Below are positions 49,567-63,411 of a stretch of 64,000 bases of DNA, piece by piece. Numbering within the stretch: position 1 is the stretch's first letter; each line of letters opens with the position of its first letter. Below the pieces are notes generated by a model. That model was not told where the DNA came from. It worked only from the letters and a program-made list of their open reading frames with translations, and did no database searches. Origin of the DNA: Timaviella obliquedivisa GSE-PSE-MK23-08B (GTDB taxonomy: Bacteria; Cyanobacteriota; Cyanobacteriia; Elainellales; Elainellaceae). Made by a program: the position numbers and the translations under genes. The stretch is taken from positions 310,001 through 374,000 of the forward strand of contig JAHHII010000004.1 of NCBI GenBank assembly GCA_019358855.1. Reading direction: 5' to 3'.

Positions 49567-50283
49567 CTAGACTCCGCCAAACCACTCGTAGCCGAAATCT
49601 TCCCAATATCCTTTTTTAGAGGGTAATTGAGAAATGAAGGTAATTTCCGTGACCCATTTACTCTGTTTGTAGCCCAGCTTAACGGGAGAGGCTAATCGCA
49701 ATGGGGCACCATTATCTACTGATAAAGGTTGCCCATTTTTTTGATATACCATCAGGGTTTGGGGATGGAGCGCCGAGGCAAGATCCCAGCTTTCGTAGTA
49801 ACCATCGGCAGATTTAAAGTAGACGTAGCGAGCGCTGGATTTGGGCTGAACCAGAGCCGCAAGATCCTGTAACCGAACGCCACCCCATTGCACGATCGCC
49901 GCCCAACCCTCGACACATACATGTTGAATTACCATGGAGGTGAACGCTAGTTTTTGCAAATCTGCCAAGCTCAACTGCAAAGGATTGGCGACTTCTCCAG
50001 CGATCGCCAATTGAAACTTGGCGGGATCGATCTGGGGTGCTTTATCAAAGGTATTAATGAGAAGTTTATCCGGTTCGATCGCGCTGAGCGGATATTCTGG
50101 GGTAGGTTTTTGGGTAAGCAGTAAAGATTCGATCGCTTGGTTGAGCGGCTCAGTGGCTTGACCCACTTCATTGGAAAATAAACTGGTGCCGCATCCATTC
50201 AGCAGCAGACCCAGCCCAGATAGCCCAGAAAGTTGCAGCAAGTGACGGCGAGAAAGAGTGCGTTTCGGTAGAATCAGGCTCAT
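49567..50283 (-). CDS. Molybdopterin-dependent oxidoreductase, sulfite-oxidase fold, MsrP-like
   Basis: A ~238-residue exported molybdoenzyme. The N-terminus has a Tat-like SRRHLLQLSG followed by a lipobox ending LLLNGC, so it is probably a Tat lipoprotein. The Mo-ligating Cys is in VIQHVCVEGWAAIVQWGG, like the CVE(A/G)W of MsrP (YedY). ARYVYFKSADGYYESWDL and GAPLRLASPVKLGYKQSKWV are further family motifs. The ATG at 50283 is chosen since it starts just before the signal; a TTG at 50349 overlaps the cytochrome gene. It may reduce protein methionine sulfoxide, with electrons from the b-type cytochrome encoded upstream. Last gene of the six-gene operon. Confidence 0.85.
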   Translation of the reverse strand: MSLILPKRTLSRRHLLQLSGLSGLGLLLNGCGTSLFSNEVGQATEPLNQAIESLLLTQKPTPEYPLSAIEPDKLLINTFDKAPQIDPAKFQLAIAGEVANPLQLSLADLQKLAFTSMVIQHVCVEGWAAIVQWGGVRLQDLAALVQPKSSARYVYFKSADGYYESWDLASALHPQTLMVYQKNGQPLSVDNGAPLRLASPVKLGYKQSKWVTEITFISQLPSKKGYWEDFGYEWFGGV

Positions 50284-50341
50284 GATTTTGTGGGGGCGAT
50301 CGGTGAGTGGAGACAATTGCAAGCAGGTGATTATGAGAAAA

Positions 50342-50947
50342 CTAGACAAACATTGATTTGATTAAACGAGTGCCGCCAACCCTTAGGGCAAATAAGGAAT
50401 GAACCAGAGTAAACAAAAGAACCGTAGGCACTGTAATAAAGTGAACGGTTCGTAAGGTTTGCCAGTTTCCAAATAGTGCGGCAAGCCAATACAGTTGAAC
50501 AGGTTTATACATTGCCAGACCACTGGCGATCGCCAATATGAGAATTGGAATAATCAGGGTATAAATTAGCCGATGCCAGGCATAGTTTTTACGCTTTACA
50601 TTTTCGCTCACTCGGATCGCTTTGACATCACTAGAGCTCGCAAATCGTCGTTGCCAACGGCGGCTAATAAAAACATATAAACCGTAGCCCAAGAGATTGA
50701 GGGAATAGATCCACATCACCGCAAAATGCCAGTCCCGTCCCCCTCCCAGCCAGCCACCGAGTAGAAATAAATTGGGAAAACGCCAACCACCCCGACTACC
50801 AAACACAGGATTGGCATTATAAATTTGCAGTCCGCTGCTAATCATTAAGAGCAAACTAATAATGTTCACCCAATGAAATGTTTTTGCCAAAATAGTTTGG
50901 CTAGGAGTTGGTAGTGCTTTCTTGCGGGCAGGAGTTGCTGAAGTCAT
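50342..50947 (-). CDS. Membrane b-type cytochrome (cytochrome b561/thiosulfate-reductase-like)
   Basis: A 201-residue protein with four predicted transmembrane helices (around residues 25-45, 75-95, 125-145 and 165-185). Histidines suitable as heme ligands occur in AKTFHWVNIISLLL, RDWHFAVMW, WHRLIYTLI and TVHFITV plus LVHSLF. The family donates quinol electrons to exported molybdoenzymes. Position next to the MsrP-like gene suggests that it replaces the MsrQ subunit. It starts 30 bp after msrA on the same strand. Confidence 0.83.
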   Translation of the reverse strand: MTSATPARKKALPTPSQTILAKTFHWVNIISLLLMISSGLQIYNANPVFGSRGGWRFPNLFLLGGWLGGGRDWHFAVMWIYSLNLLGYGLYVFISRRWQRRFASSSDVKAIRVSENVKRKNYAWHRLIYTLIIPILILAIASGLAMYKPVQLYWLAALFGNWQTLRTVHFITVPTVLLFTLVHSLFALRVGGTRLIKSMFV

Positions 50948-50977: not shown

Positions 50978-51688
50978 TTATCTTACTTTGTTCTTATATA
51001 GTGTGGGAAACTGGACTTGAAGATTTTTGAGTTTAGGTAAATCGTGAATTACAACATAAGGATAAGCTGGATTGCGATCGATGAAATCTTGGTGATATTC
51101 TTCGGCTTCATAAAACCCATTTAAAGGCGTAACTTGGGTGGCAATCGCACCCTTAAAAATCTTTGCCTCATTAAGTTGCTCGATATAGGCTTTCGTGATC
51201 TGCTGCTGCTCGGAGTTAGCAAAAAAGACAGCCGAACGATATTGGGTGCCAGAGTCAGGGCCTTGACGATTCAGTTGAGTTGGATCGTGGGCAACAGCAA
51301 AGTAAACTTTGAGTAACTGTCCGTAGGAAATCTGCGTAGGATCGTAGGTGATTTTTACTGCCTCAGCGTGCTCCGTGCTGCCAGAACTGACCGCGTCGTA
51401 GTTTGCGCTTTTAGCGTCACCTCCCGCAAAACCTGAGACAACATTAGAAACTCCCTTGAGATGTTCAAACACGGCTTCTACACCCCAAAAACATCCACCT
51501 GCGAATACTACAGTTTGTTCTCCTTGCACATTTGAGGGAACGGTTTTCGGATCAGGAAAGTTTACTGTTGCGATCGCGCTTGGAGAACTCAATGTTGTTC
51601 GAGATCCGCTATAAAGCGCGATCGCAGTAACAGAAAGCAGGGACAGAGTCACAATGAAATAGCGCGATCGCAGAATAGAAACTGACAC
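50978..51688 (-). CDS. msrA: Exported peptide-methionine (S)-S-oxide reductase
   Basis: A 236-residue MsrA with an N-terminal signal anchor (FIVTLSLLSVTAIALYSGS). The catalytic Cys is in VVFAGGCFWGVEAVFEHLKG; GSTEHAEAV, GTQYRSAVFF and EEYHQDF are also present. It reduces the S-epimer of methionine sulfoxide in the envelope. Most MsrA proteins are cytosolic, so the leader is notable. It lies between ccdA (16 bp upstream) and the cytochrome gene. Reductant should come from the TlpA-like thioredoxin and CcdA. Confidence 0.93.
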   Translation of the reverse strand: MSVSILRSRYFIVTLSLLSVTAIALYSGSRTTLSSPSAIATVNFPDPKTVPSNVQGEQTVVFAGGCFWGVEAVFEHLKGVSNVVSGFAGGDAKSANYDAVSSGSTEHAEAVKITYDPTQISYGQLLKVYFAVAHDPTQLNRQGPDSGTQYRSAVFFANSEQQQITKAYIEQLNEAKIFKGAIATQVTPLNGFYEAEEYHQDFIDRNPAYPYVVIHDLPKLKNLQVQFPTLYKNKVR

Positions 51689-51704: not shown

Positions 51705-52388
51705 TTAAAGCAACGGGTTTGGAAAAAATGGCGCTAGCCAAAGTTGAATTTGCACATCCCAGCCCAAAAGAATAGCGATCGCCGTTATCACCACGATTAC
51801 ACCTCCAACTCGCTGTAATGTTGCACTGTAGGCACGAATCTTAAGAAGTTGGCGGCTGAGGGTGCGTCCTCCATAGGCGATCGCTAACAAGGGCAAGGCT
51901 GCCCCAATGCCGTAAACCAACAATAAGCGAAATGCACCTAATATTTGATGATCGACAGCGGCTAATATCAAAATGCTGCCTAGAATGGGTCCAGCGCAAG
52001 GTGTCCAGAGGAAGCCCAGTTGGGTGCCTAGCCAAAACTCGCCCAACAGTCCGGGGGACGCAGACGATTGAAATCGCTGAATGCGAAGCACACTGAATAC
52101 GCGATCGCTCCAATGGGGAAAGATTGCCAACACTCCTAAAACTAACAAGAGGACGATCGCGCCTAGCCGAATGCCATTAGCTAACCCGGTCAACCAGCTT
52201 GCAGTGATGCCTAACAAACTTCCTGCTACCGCAAACCCGCTCACTAAACCCGACACTAGCACAACCGGAGCGTAGGGATGAGCTTGCAGCGATCGCCCCA
52301 CAATAATCGGCAAAATTGGCAAGACGCAAGGTGAAAGAACAGTCAGAACTCCTGCCAACAATGCTAAACCCAGGGGCAACGTCGTCAT
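51705..52388 (-). CDS. ccdA: Cytochrome c biogenesis/thiol transporter CcdA-type
   Basis: A 227-residue polytopic protein with six predicted helices. The paired thiols that carry electrons across the membrane are in LSPCVLPILP and WTPCAGPILGS. CcdA passes reducing power from cytosolic thioredoxin to an exported thioredoxin-like partner, here most likely the product of the gene three bases upstream. The operon context points to supply of MsrA rather than, or besides, cytochrome maturation. Confidence 0.9.
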   Translation of the reverse strand: MTTLPLGLALLAGVLTVLSPCVLPILPIIVGRSLQAHPYAPVVLVSGLVSGFAVAGSLLGITASWLTGLANGIRLGAIVLLLVLGVLAIFPHWSDRVFSVLRIQRFQSSASPGLLGEFWLGTQLGFLWTPCAGPILGSILILAAVDHQILGAFRLLLVYGIGAALPLLAIAYGGRTLSRQLLKIRAYSATLQRVGGVIVVITAIAILLGWDVQIQLWLAPFFPNPLL

Positions 52389-52391
52389 GAA

Positions 52392-52988
52392 TTAGCCTTC
52401 CTGAAGAAGCTGACGAATGGTTTTCTCAGTTTCGTCATAGGCTCCTTCGCCAATGTGGTCATAGCGTACTGTACCTTGGCGATCGGCTAAATAAAGCTGG
52501 GGCCAGTAGCCATTGTCGTAAGCTTTCCAGGTTTTGAAGTCGTTATCTAAGGGCACAGGATAAGTAATCTGGTATTGTTGCAATGCCTTTTGAACATTGC
52601 GGGGTTCTCGCTCAAAGGCAAACTCTGGCGTGTGAATACCCACTACTTTCAACCCCTGAGCAGCATATTGCTGATGCCATTGAACGATGTAAGGCAACGT
52701 TCGTTGACAGTTGATGCAAGCAAACGTCCAAAACTGAATGAGCACAACGCTACCATCCAGATCAGCAACCGTTAAGGGCGAACCATTCAGCCACTCACTA
52801 ATGCCCTGAAATTCAGGTAAGGTTCTTCCTTCCTTAGGCACTGGGCTAGAAGCTAGGGCAGGAGTGGTGGATGCAGGAGTGGTAGATGTAGATATTTTTT
52901 GGCAACTAGGAGCCAATGTTGCAGTACTGGCTCCTAGCAATCCCAACCCCAAATACCTGAGTAATTGTCGTCGTTGAAGACTTGCCAT
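52392..52988 (-). CDS. TlpA-like exported thioredoxin
   Basis: A ~198-residue redoxin. The N-terminus LQRRQLLRYLGLGLLGASTA resembles a Tat leader and ends in a lipobox (LAPSC), suggesting a Tat lipoprotein. The thioredoxin-fold active site is WTFACINCQRTLPYIV (CXXC), after VVLIQFW, with LKVVGIHTPEFAFE and WPQLYLADRQG. CcdA is encoded three bases downstream, so the pair should deliver electrons to envelope substrates such as MsrA. The ATG at 52988 has AGGAAA upstream; longer frames reach into the preceding gene. Confidence 0.88.
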   Translation of the reverse strand: MASLQRRQLLRYLGLGLLGASTATLAPSCQKISTSTTPASTTPALASSPVPKEGRTLPEFQGISEWLNGSPLTVADLDGSVVLIQFWTFACINCQRTLPYIVQWHQQYAAQGLKVVGIHTPEFAFEREPRNVQKALQQYQITYPVPLDNDFKTWKAYDNGYWPQLYLADRQGTVRYDHIGEGAYDETEKTIRQLLQEG

Positions 52989-53001
52989 CTTTTTTGATTT
53001 C

Positions 53002-53409
53002 CTAAGGGTTAGTTGCTGGGCTGGGAGACATAGCATCACCCTTCATTGCGTCGCCTTGCATCGCATCATTCTTCATGGCATCATTCTTCATTGCGTCACC
53101 CTTCATTGCATCACCCTTCATTGCGTCACCCTTCATCGCATCATTCTTCATCGCATCATTCTTCATCGCGTCGCCTTGCATCGCGTCACCCTTCATCGCA
53201 TCATTCTTCATCGCGTCGCCTTGCATCGCGTCACCCTTCATCGCATCATTCTTCATTGCGTCGCCTTGCATCGCGTCACTTGGAGCCGCACCAGATGCAG
53301 GGCTGCTGGGGGCGGATTGGGTGCTAGTCGGTACGTTGCTGGAGCAGCTTGCGAGGGTAGCGGCTGCTAACACTAAACCTGTGACTAAGCCAATGATTTT
53401 GAAGTTCAT
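53002..53409 (-). CDS. Methionine-rich pentapeptide-repeat lipoprotein
   Basis: A 135-residue exported protein. The signal peptide ends in a lipobox (LAAATLASC, Cys22). After a Ser/Pro linker, residues 45-129 are 17 tandem pentapeptides DAM(K/Q)(G/N), the last being DAMSP. This gives one Met every five residues and about 15% Met in the mature chain. It resembles the pentapeptide MXKDX repeat proteins known to annotators, which have no established function. It is the first gene of the operon with thioredoxin, CcdA, MsrA, cytochrome and MsrP-like genes, so its methionines may be an oxidant sink. Such repetition is prone to copy-number change. Confidence 0.85.
   Translation of the reverse strand: MNFKIIGLVTGLVLAAATLASCSSNVPTSTQSAPSSPASGAAPSDAMQGDAMKNDAMKGDAMQGDAMKNDAMKGDAMQGDAMKNDAMKNDAMKGDAMKGDAMKGDAMKNDAMKNDAMQGDAMKGDAMSPSPATNP
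53023..53277. repeat. 17 x 15-bp coding tandem repeat
   Basis: These are the codons of the DAM(K/Q)(G/N) array. The order QG-KN-KG recurs, so there is also a 45-bp higher-order unit at the N-terminal side. The opposite strand is open in several frames merely because of the repeat. Confidence 0.9.
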
Positions 53410-53614
53410 GTCTTTTGTGCCTTATGGGTGAGTAGAGATGGTGAGTAAGCCGCAATGTCTTTTGACATTCCGATAGTAGGCTTTTGTCCTAGAGATTCTC
53501 TGAGGAACACTTAATGATTAGCTGAGAAAATCCAGACAAATAAATGAGAAAACTGAGAAAGATGACTCTAATAGGGCTGATAAAATGGCAGCAATGCTCT
53601 CAGGAAGTTTACTG

Positions 53615-54714: not shown

Positions 54715-54840
54715 TTGTCAGCCGATGCAATGCGACTGTGACTCGATACAATGCGAATATGACTCGATACAGTGCGACTGTGACTCGATACGATGCGAAT
54801 GTGACTCGATACAATACGAATATGACTCGATACAGTGCGA
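54715..54840. repeat. 21-bp minisatellite, about six copies
   Basis: Five close copies of a unit such as CTGTGACTCGATACAATGCG plus A (54736-54840) follow a more diverged one (54715-54735), and older copies may extend to ~54610. The unit length keeps frames open on both strands, giving spurious heptapeptide repeats; I see no real gene. The last unit runs into GCGATCGC. Confidence 0.85.
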
Positions 54841-61665: not shown

Positions 61666-63411
61666 ATGAAAGACTTCGGAAATAATCGCCGGAAAGCCAC
61701 ATTAGTTAGCATTACAGCGCAACCCCAAGTATTGAAAAACGCCATTGGTGGACGCGATCGCGCTGACTGGTTACGCCTTGATCTCTCTAGTCGCAGCAGC
61801 GTTCAAGCCACATTGAGCAAACTAAAAGCGAATGCAGATTTAAGCTTGCTGAACGGTTCAGGACAAGTAGTTTTACAATCAAAACGGAAAGGGAAAAAGA
61901 ACGAAGCGATCGCCGCCACCCTAGATGCAGGCAGATACTTCTTAAAGATTACTCTAGGTAGCCCTCAAGACCAAACTAAATACCGTCTGCAATTGTCTGG
62001 CGTGCCTGTCAATGCTGGAACGGGCACAGGCGCAACTCCAGCAGCTAATACTGCACCTGTGTTAGCGATCAATGCTCCGCTGTCACTGACCAAAGGAACG
62101 CCCACGATTTTCAACGGTAACTTGCTAAAAGCCACCGATGCCGAACAAAATTCCAGCCAACTGGTCTACACCCTGACTCAATTACCAGAAGCAGGTCTGC
62201 TGAAACTTAATGGCGATCGCCTTAAAGCCGGAGGCACCTTTACCCAAGCCGATATTGATGCGGGTCGCCTCGTATACAACAGCCTAGGGCGCACCCAACG
62301 ACTGACTAACAACAGTACCAATAACTTCTCTCCTCAAATTTCTGGCTCCAATGTCGTCTGGCAAGGCAGCGGCGGCACCGATGGTGGCACAGACGCTGAA
62401 ATTTTCTTTTTCAACGGCAGCACCACCACCCAACTGACCACCAACAGTACCGGTGACTTCTCTCCTCAAATTTCTGGCTCTAATGTCGTCTGGAGGGGCA
62501 GTGGCGGCACCGATGGTGGCACAGACGCTGAAATTTTCTTTTTTAACGGCAGCACCACCACTCAACTCACTACCAACAATACCTTTGACTTCGATCCTCA
62601 AATTTCTGGCTCCAATGTCGTCTGGAGGGGCAGCGGCGGCACCGATGGCGGCACAGACGCTGAAATTTTCTTTTTCAACGGCACCACCACCACTCAACTT
62701 AGTACTAACAGTACCAATGACTTCGACCCTCAAATTTCTGGCTCTAATGTCGTCTGGAGGGGCAGCGGCGGCACCGATGGCGGCACAGACGCTGAAATTT
62801 TCTTTTTCAACGGCACCACCACCACTCAACTGACCACCAATAGTACCAATGACTTCTCTCCTCAAATTTCTGGCTCCAATGTCGTCTGGTATGGCAGCGG
62901 CGGCACCGATGGCGGCACAGACGCTGAAATTTTCTTTTTCAACGGCAGCACCATCACTCAACTGACCACCAACAGTGCCGATGACTTCGACCCTCAAATT
63001 TCTGGCTCCAATGTCGTCTGGTATGGCAGTGGCGGCACCGATGGCGGCATAGACCGTGAGATTTTCTTTTTCAATGGCAGCACCACCACTCAACTCACTA
63101 CCAACAGCGCCAATGACTTCGACCCTCAAATTTCTGGCTCCAATGTCGTCTGGCAAGGCAGTGGCGGTACCGATGGCGGCACAGACACTGAAATTTTCTT
63201 TTTCAACGGCAGCACCACTCAACTCACTACCAACAGTACCGAGGACTTCTCTCCTCAAATTTCTGGCTCCAATGTCGCTTGGACTAGCATCGTGGGCGTC
63301 ACCTTTGAGACTTTCTTTGGTAATTTGGCAACGAATGATAGCTTTGGCTTTACGGTTGCCGATGGGGTGGGCGGAGCAACCAATGGCACTTTTAACCTGA
63401 CGTTGAGATAG
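61666..63411 (+). CDS. Repeat protein: PPC-like domain, split CSPG/cadherin-like domain and internal propeller-like array
   Basis: A 581-residue protein. Residues ~1-115 look like a PPC (pre-peptidase) domain (LSSRSSVQATLSKLKANADL, AGRYFLKITLGS). Residues ~125-205 match the first part of a CSPG/cadherin-like domain (APVLAINAPLSLTKG ... QADIDAGRLVYNSLG). Residues ~211-540 are seven full and one partial 44-residue repeats with QISGSNVVW, DGGTDAEIFFFNG and TQLTTNS, resembling beta-propeller blades. The end (NLATNDSFGFTVADGVGG) matches the rest of the CSPG domain. No classical signal peptide is seen; export by a type I system is possible. Confidence 0.82.
   Translation: MKDFGNNRRKATLVSITAQPQVLKNAIGGRDRADWLRLDLSSRSSVQATLSKLKANADLSLLNGSGQVVLQSKRKGKKNEAIAATLDAGRYFLKITLGSPQDQTKYRLQLSGVPVNAGTGTGATPAANTAPVLAINAPLSLTKGTPTIFNGNLLKATDAEQNSSQLVYTLTQLPEAGLLKLNGDRLKAGGTFTQADIDAGRLVYNSLGRTQRLTNNSTNNFSPQISGSNVVWQGSGGTDGGTDAEIFFFNGSTTTQLTTNSTGDFSPQISGSNVVWRGSGGTDGGTDAEIFFFNGSTTTQLTTNNTFDFDPQISGSNVVWRGSGGTDGGTDAEIFFFNGTTTTQLSTNSTNDFDPQISGSNVVWRGSGGTDGGTDAEIFFFNGTTTTQLTTNSTNDFSPQISGSNVVWYGSGGTDGGTDAEIFFFNGSTITQLTTNSADDFDPQISGSNVVWYGSGGTDGGIDREIFFFNGSTTTQLTTNSANDFDPQISGSNVVWQGSGGTDGGTDTEIFFFNGSTTQLTTNSTEDFSPQISGSNVAWTSIVGVTFETFFGNLATNDSFGFTVADGVGGATNGTFNLTLR
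62296..63285. repeat. 132-bp coding tandem repeat, seven to eight copies
   Basis: Copies at a strict 132-bp period, for example CAAATTTCTGGCTC at 62335, 62467 and 62599, with very few differences between them. High identity implies recent expansion or gene conversion. Confidence 0.92.

Follow-up and report, generated by a model that had tools for sequence, protein, structure and literature searches.

According to the accounts in two citing papers (PMC8315932, PMC5748585), MrpX of Azospira suillum scavenges hypochlorite by sacrificial oxidation together with a YedY-type reductase, and MrpX-YedY1 is under the control of the ECF-type sigma/anti-sigma pair sigF/nrsF; both papers name Melnyk 2015 as the source. 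As outlined in PMC8315932, the BcrXQP system of Brucella melitensis, with BcrS/AbcS, combines an MXKDX-repeat protein with an MsrQP-like pair, lies adjacent to ECF sigma and anti-sigma genes, and is induced by HOCl, and a sink role has been proposed for BcrX. For Limnospira, PMC8400943 describes a gene resembling MsrP whose MsrQ counterpart could not readily be found, consistent with MsrP having another partner in cyanobacteria. Among titles and abstract beginnings in the open-access literature, a scope outside which most subscription journals lie, we found no description of the cyanobacterial operon reported here and nothing relevant on Met repeat number.

The window analyzed here is a stretch of 64,000 nucleotides of the cyanobacterium Timaviella obliquedivisa GSE-PSE-MK23-08B (contig JAHHII010000004.1, positions 310,001 to 374,000). 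On its minus strand, an operon begins with a gene encoding a Met array and continues with genes for TlpA, CcdA, MsrA, a cytochrome b561, and an MsrP-like molybdoenzyme (Table 1); the array protein is the sole product without an evident enzyme fold. Export signals were recognized by eye as a lipobox in the array protein, RR and lipobox-like Cys in TlpA and the molybdoenzyme, and a hydrophobic N-terminus in MsrA. Because the operon mates are related to enzymes reducing oxidized methionine, the array protein is likely to be an oxidant sponge, and because the reductases of the operon would restore Met from methionine sulfoxide, this sponge would be rechargeable. We therefore consider the array protein to be, most probably, a sink that is sacrificed to oxidants and that methionine sulfoxide reductases recharge, resembling MrpX but supplied by other electron donors. 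The operon content, the association across 85 loci, the D-A-M core, the unfolded prediction, the YedY-like features of the molybdoenzyme, the ECF genes and shared motif at some loci, a Met-rich linker in a Caulobacteraceae DipZ-type protein, and the precedent of MrpX and BcrX point to such a sink; the subthreshold MsrP score, the closeness of a sulfite dehydrogenase in the fold search, the scarcity of MsrA at array loci, the array-free loci that keep reductase genes, the limited reach of TIGR02953 among relatives, and the absence of the ECF motif from the window count against it.

Table 1. Position of the array operon and associated features in the window
Feature	Position	Strand	Basis or description
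Met-array lipoprotein gene	53002..53409	-	135 aa; open reading frame and TIGR02953
Met array	53023..53277	-	16 full 15-bp units DAM(QG/KN/KG) and a last DAM(SP); 17 Met
Full array units (16)	53038-53277	-	
Terminal DAM(SP)	53023-53037	-	
66-bp exact repeat, two overlapping copies	53256-53191 and 53211-53146 (span 53146..53256)	-	Unit table; 45-bp offset
TTCTCA repeats (three) upstream of array gene	53523..53559	-	Sole cluster of 3 in 60 bp in window
TlpA-like thioredoxin	52392..52991	-	CINC motif, RR signal, lipobox-like Cys30
CcdA/DsbD-type transmembrane thiol electron carrier	51705..52388	-	PF02683; two Cys
MsrA, hydrophobic N-terminus	50978..51688	-	TIGR00401; single Cys in GGCFWG
Membrane cytochrome b561-type subunit	50342..50947	-	PF01292
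Molybdopterin oxidoreductase, MsrP/sulfite-oxidase superfamily	49567..50286	-	RR signal, lipobox Cys; ORF open to 50349

As in MrpX-YedY1, so far as the cited accounts describe it, an exported Met-rich protein is encoded beside an MsrP/YedY-type gene. Unlike in that system, the window protein is a cyanobacterial lipoprotein built of D-A-M units, the expected MsrQ/YedZ is replaced by a b561-type cytochrome, and TlpA, CcdA, and sometimes MsrA are added; the sigma/anti-sigma pair has a counterpart at some cyanobacterial loci, but the window has no ECF motif. With BcrXQP, as portrayed in the same source, the cyanobacterial operon shares a Met-repeat protein, genes for a reductase and a membrane partner, and, at part of the loci, nearby ECF and anti-sigma genes. 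It differs in its lipoprotein D-A-M units, b561 partner, TlpA/CcdA, and occasional MsrA, and its anti-sigma factor is of the RskA type and linked at some loci only. By analogy, the cyanobacterial system reads as one that may work like MrpX and BcrX. If so, the Met-sink idea would reach beyond a few proteobacteria and take in phototrophs that produce oxygen, with other reductase partners.

The array protein consists of a signal peptide with the lipobox LASC, a Ser/Pro/Ala linker, the array, and a short tail. In the coding direction the units run QG KN KG QG KN KG QG KN KN KG KG KG KN KN QG KG and end in DAM-SP. A sequence-only reading had described 15-bp units with a higher-order 45-bp period, and both periods were recovered by TRF (15.2 and 5.6 copies, respectively); its order of units is right for units 1 to 14 and omits the final QG-KG. 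Identity between units is highest at lag 3 (0.862 versus 0.783 in shuffles), with P of 0.009 at lag 3 itself and 0.145 after correction for the choice among nine lags, so that lag-3 identity alone is weak support for a 45-bp order. The longest exact repeat in the array, 66 bp at an offset of 45 bp, was matched in 4 of 5,000 unit shuffles, and it supports, as the trace of a block duplication, the growth by 45-bp blocks suggested earlier, applied to units 1 to 8. The units beyond these look like single-unit mixing. Open reading frames on the opposite strand across the array read as by-products of the repeat.

With 99.2 bits against a curated cutoff of 41, the protein belongs with TIGR02953 (penta_MxKDx), with which it shares a signal peptide and Met pentapeptides, although none of the 16 units contains a literal MxKDx pentapeptide (G or N occupies the expected place of K) and the units of relatives often have 6 to 9 residues. 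In the source genome this model gave two overlapping matches, both inside the window array and none elsewhere; 6 of 36 genomes of the family have matches, 1 of them above the cutoff, and 28 of 54 arrays of relatives were matched at E 0.01. A Pfam search of the array protein at E 0.01 returned no family. AF2, run on 54 arrays, modeled the signal helix and left the array without a fold (pLDDT 52.8, pTM 0.15). The array protein is predicted to be, probably, an unfolded, membrane-anchored lipoprotein. A second type of Met-rich ORF, with MSGDAMSGSAMSG units, occurs at L007 1447-1833 in the same family, away from the operon locus of that genome.

The TlpA-like gene lies ∼10 bp downstream of the array gene on the same strand, and its product aligns with the N-terminal region of NF010625, a model of MsrA/MsrB fusions (E 2.5e-5); in those fusions the thioredoxin domain is part of the same protein, whereas here TlpA has its own gene and an array is added. 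TlpA and CcdA together resemble what we take to be a split DipZ: DipZ is one protein, while its cyanobacterial counterparts are separate genes accompanied by the Met array. MsrA exceeds the TIGR00401 cutoff (180.1 versus 108.1 bits) and has the GCFWG motif in its translation. An MsrQ/YedZ-type partner was sought with NCBIfam, which presumably includes an MsrQ model; at 0.01 the b561-type subunit matched hydrogenase and formate dehydrogenase cytochrome b models and no MsrQ.

Matches to TlpA at E 1e-10 occur in 121 of 291 genomes of the class, the weaker ones mostly in longer frames. One set of loci comprised the 59 best TlpA places, taken by rank, and a second, named set the best 80 of at least 583 confirmed places (47 of cyanobacterial type, L106 among them, and 33 from elsewhere); 85 distinct cyanobacterial-type loci remained once those with duplicate TlpA DNA had been removed. 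An array was scored in ORFs with ≥4 [AS]M within 60 residues and any other gene when matched anywhere in the retrieved locus on either strand. By hand, L085 was dropped (its match lies in a long array-free protein) and L135 was kept despite a score of 3; L048, L121, and L102, which are weak, distant, or differently built, are counted as array loci. Scored in this way, a Met-array gene is near TlpA at 63 of the 85 sampled loci, a cytochrome gene is present at 72, and a molybdoenzyme gene at 68 (58 of the 63 array loci). MsrA was found at 13 of the 85 (12/63 array loci). Adequate flanks (≥700 bp upstream and ≥2,800 bp downstream) were available for 73 loci, among which cytochrome and molybdoenzyme genes occur together at 54 of 54 loci with an array versus 9 of 19 without (Fisher 1.5e-7, which overstates independence because the loci are related by descent); for MsrA the figures are 10/54 and 1/19 (Fisher 0.27). 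Since the pair is retained at 9 of 19 array-free loci, it can function without the array.

Among the 33 noncyanobacterial loci within the best 80 of at least 583, four passed the array threshold and one is real, namely, a Met-rich linker at L153 (5176-7119, Caulobacteraceae) that joins CcdA-like and TlpA domains in a DipZ-type protein. The CcdA-like part is 32% identical to the window CcdA, an ORF upstream resembles MsrB by eye, and the protein is apparently a separate solution from the same parts. The other three (L165, L167, and L178) were judged by eye to be chance or coiled-coil ORFs. A plasmid search returned 46 records, all with query coverage below 80%: the top match, a 1.2-Mb replicon of Kovacikia minuta, covers 71% at 69.5% identity, and the remaining 19 among the matches listed cover ≤14%, in the MsrA region.

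Several loci have features of their own. In Pseudanabaena, a DM13 (electron transfer) protein is encoded between the array and TlpA (L120 1501-2007), and at L147 7463-8083 a DM13 domain is fused behind the Met array. MsrB is close to the locus in L116. At L102 3013-3315, DAMKG units form the C terminus of an exported protein that appears coiled-coil-like by eye, its gene lying upstream of the cytochrome and molybdoenzyme genes. A Pseudanabaena frigida MAG has two loci with an identical array ∼23 kb apart on one contig (L129 and L130), through duplication or an assembly artifact, and a contig filed under a Tatlockia MAG (L106), likely misbinned, carries a cyanobacterial-type operon.

Across species the units include DAMKG, DAMKKDG, DAMKQG, DAMSSP, DAMESP, DAMNKG, and others, with Met mostly 5 to 9 residues apart and many units of relatives 6 to 9 residues long. 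His, Cys, and aromatic residues are nearly absent from the 63 arrays. With the rest of the unit as anchor, Met is retained in 427 of 432 cases, Ala in 427/435, Asp in 427/458, and Lys in 427/514, and the residue following Lys is Gly in 130 of 427, counts in which the units of one array are not independent. The expectation that Met is kept while its neighbors drift therefore holds for Lys and the residue after it; Ala is as well retained as Met, and Asp nearly so.

Array length changes quickly between species. Among the 50 complete arrays of the 63, 20 pairs come from loci whose TlpA proteins are ≥85% identical; mature length was equal in none of these pairs and Met count in two, figures to which short-read collapse may contribute (in a same-genus MAG the array is divided between two contig ends). 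The arrays of L072 and L078, from genomes of 9 and 1 contigs, have 116 and 123 residues. A fixed copy number is thus refuted between species, in collections with one genome per species; variation between strains and its use as an adjustable capacity, both raised by the sequence-only reading, are conjectural. Because the array is fast-changing at a fixed locus, a possible evolution of antioxidant capacity by repeat slippage is directly testable.

We propose that the unfolded array lipoprotein lies outside the cytoplasm, where its closely spaced Met would take up strong oxidants (hypochlorous acid, peroxide, or singlet oxygen are candidates) ahead of other envelope proteins, and that the reductases of the operon would convert methionine sulfoxide back to methionine. 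Two electron routes may be inferred: from quinol through cytochrome b561 to the MsrP-like molybdoenzyme and, where MsrA occurs, from cytoplasmic thioredoxin through CcdA and TlpA to MsrA. The thiol route often has no obvious enzyme, because MsrA is found at only 12 of the 63 array loci. Unit number would shift quickly as 15-bp units and 45-bp blocks are duplicated or lost. The role of an oxidizable Met pool, put forward from the sequence at the outset, fits the gene content of the operon. In a more specific form, which is tentative and which we rate as rather doubtful, cyanobacteria would have a methionine redox cycle of their own outside the cytoplasm. The D-A-M protein would be both its sink and its preferred substrate, charged by CcdA-TlpA from the thiol pool and by the molybdoenzyme from the quinone pool, with the b561 cytochrome replacing MsrQ, and its capacity would depend on fast repeat turnover as well as on expression.

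The identity of the molybdoenzyme bears on the first of three competing explanations. By sequence its best PDB match is 1xdq (3.3e-17; next, 1.6e-7), which we take, with 1xdy, to be E. coli YedY/MsrP. Its CVEGW aligns with CVEAW of 1xdq, the Cys of which is presumably the Mo ligand, and R13, R14, and C124 (RR and the CVEGW Cys) and the lipobox Cys are invariant among 32 aligned relatives. The score with the MsrP model NF003767 is 95.8 bits, below the cutoff of 207. The molybdoenzyme and cytochrome could instead form a sulfite dehydrogenase, the array being a passenger or spacer lipoprotein: the fold superfamily is common to both enzymes, SorA and SoxC models match weakly, and in a fold search with an AF2 model of modest quality (pLDDT 66), 1xdy/1xdq came out on top and a Starkeya sulfite dehydrogenase sixth, its E value within tenfold of that of YedY (4.4e-13 versus 4.9e-14). 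However, 1xdq is clearly ahead by sequence, the score with the SorA sulfite dehydrogenase model NF052245 is far below the cutoff (53.1 versus 600 bits), and the molybdoenzyme is strongly associated with arrays, all of which make a sulfite dehydrogenase highly improbable.

The TlpA and CcdA families also act in cytochrome and copper-site assembly, and this role would suit an array that buffers Cu(I)/Ag(I), its thioethers binding soft metals in the periplasm, with TlpA/CcdA serving copper-protein assembly. Met-rich domains are found in copper proteins, according to PMC11840665. We nevertheless think a copper buffer very unlikely, given arrays almost without His and Cys and neighbors that are instead MsrA, MsrB, or MsrP-like genes; no copper gene was recognized by eye among the neighbors listed, most of which lack annotation. 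Similarly slight is the chance that the array is a docking tether whose D-A-M units hold or guide reductases that repair other envelope proteins. The conservation of Ala and Asp next to Met would agree with docking, as would the array-free loci that keep the cytochrome and molybdoenzyme genes, but 17 copies with a quick turnover in number would hardly be needed for it, and MrpX is reported as sacrificial in work cited in PMC8315932. The rechargeable sink remains our preferred explanation.

At 10 of the 47 named loci, two of which are copies in one genome, the operon has genes for an ECF sigma factor and an RskA-type anti-sigma factor nearby (Pfam was run on two pairs). The motif [CA]ATCC[AG]N15CGTA precedes the ECF gene at all 10 of these loci and the array gene in 23 of 57 cases, at 79 to 109 bp from the start in 21 of the 23. 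Six array loci whose upstream regions are truncated or unusual (L044, L048, L059, L084, L102, and L121) were excluded, and the counts are descriptive because the motif was first seen by eye in partly the same sequences. Markov sequences contained 0.02 motifs per set on average and never more than 2. As a better control, of 467 other ORF upstream regions at the named loci, 8 have the motif, and all 8 belong to TlpA or cytochrome genes of the system, in divergent units at four loci. The motif appears to be promoter-like and common to array genes and linked ECF sigma genes, and it would predict a regulon in some lineages. A complete Pseudanabaena genome has 10 sites of the stricter form CATCC[AG]N15CGTA versus 7 when the motif is reversed as a control. 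Four of the 10 sites are ≤260 bp from an ORF start, and the four ORFs are the array gene, its linked ECF gene, and two more. No site occurs in the window. In the source genome the stricter motif is not enriched (15 sites versus 13 in the reversed control), and one of three unlinked ECF-RskA pairs has a site 98 bp before its sigma gene.

The TTCTCA repeats upstream of the window array gene are conserved in the same-genus MAG and may be a candidate regulator site. Among the 34 upstream regions without the ECF motif, TTCTCAG occurs in 13 (expected, 1.8), equal to the largest 7-mer count in 60 shuffled sets, and TTTCTCAG occurs in 9 (expected, 0.6), just exceeding the shuffle maximum of 8. TTCTCAG is found in none of the 23 with the ECF motif (Fisher 7e-4, for related rows), so that the two elements may replace each other; an alternation of two control types is suggestive only. 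A histidine kinase gene is present at 16 of the 47 named loci (Pfam was run on one), and the TTCTCAG repeat shows a tendency only to accompany it (6 of 15 array upstream regions with a kinase versus 2 of 19 without; Fisher 0.10).

Elsewhere in the window, a 132-bp unit is repeated in tandem (7.4 copies, 90% matches) at 62301-63277, and a 21-bp unit (5.6 copies) at 54723-54840, ∼370 bp from a GNAT gene, is open in more than one frame.
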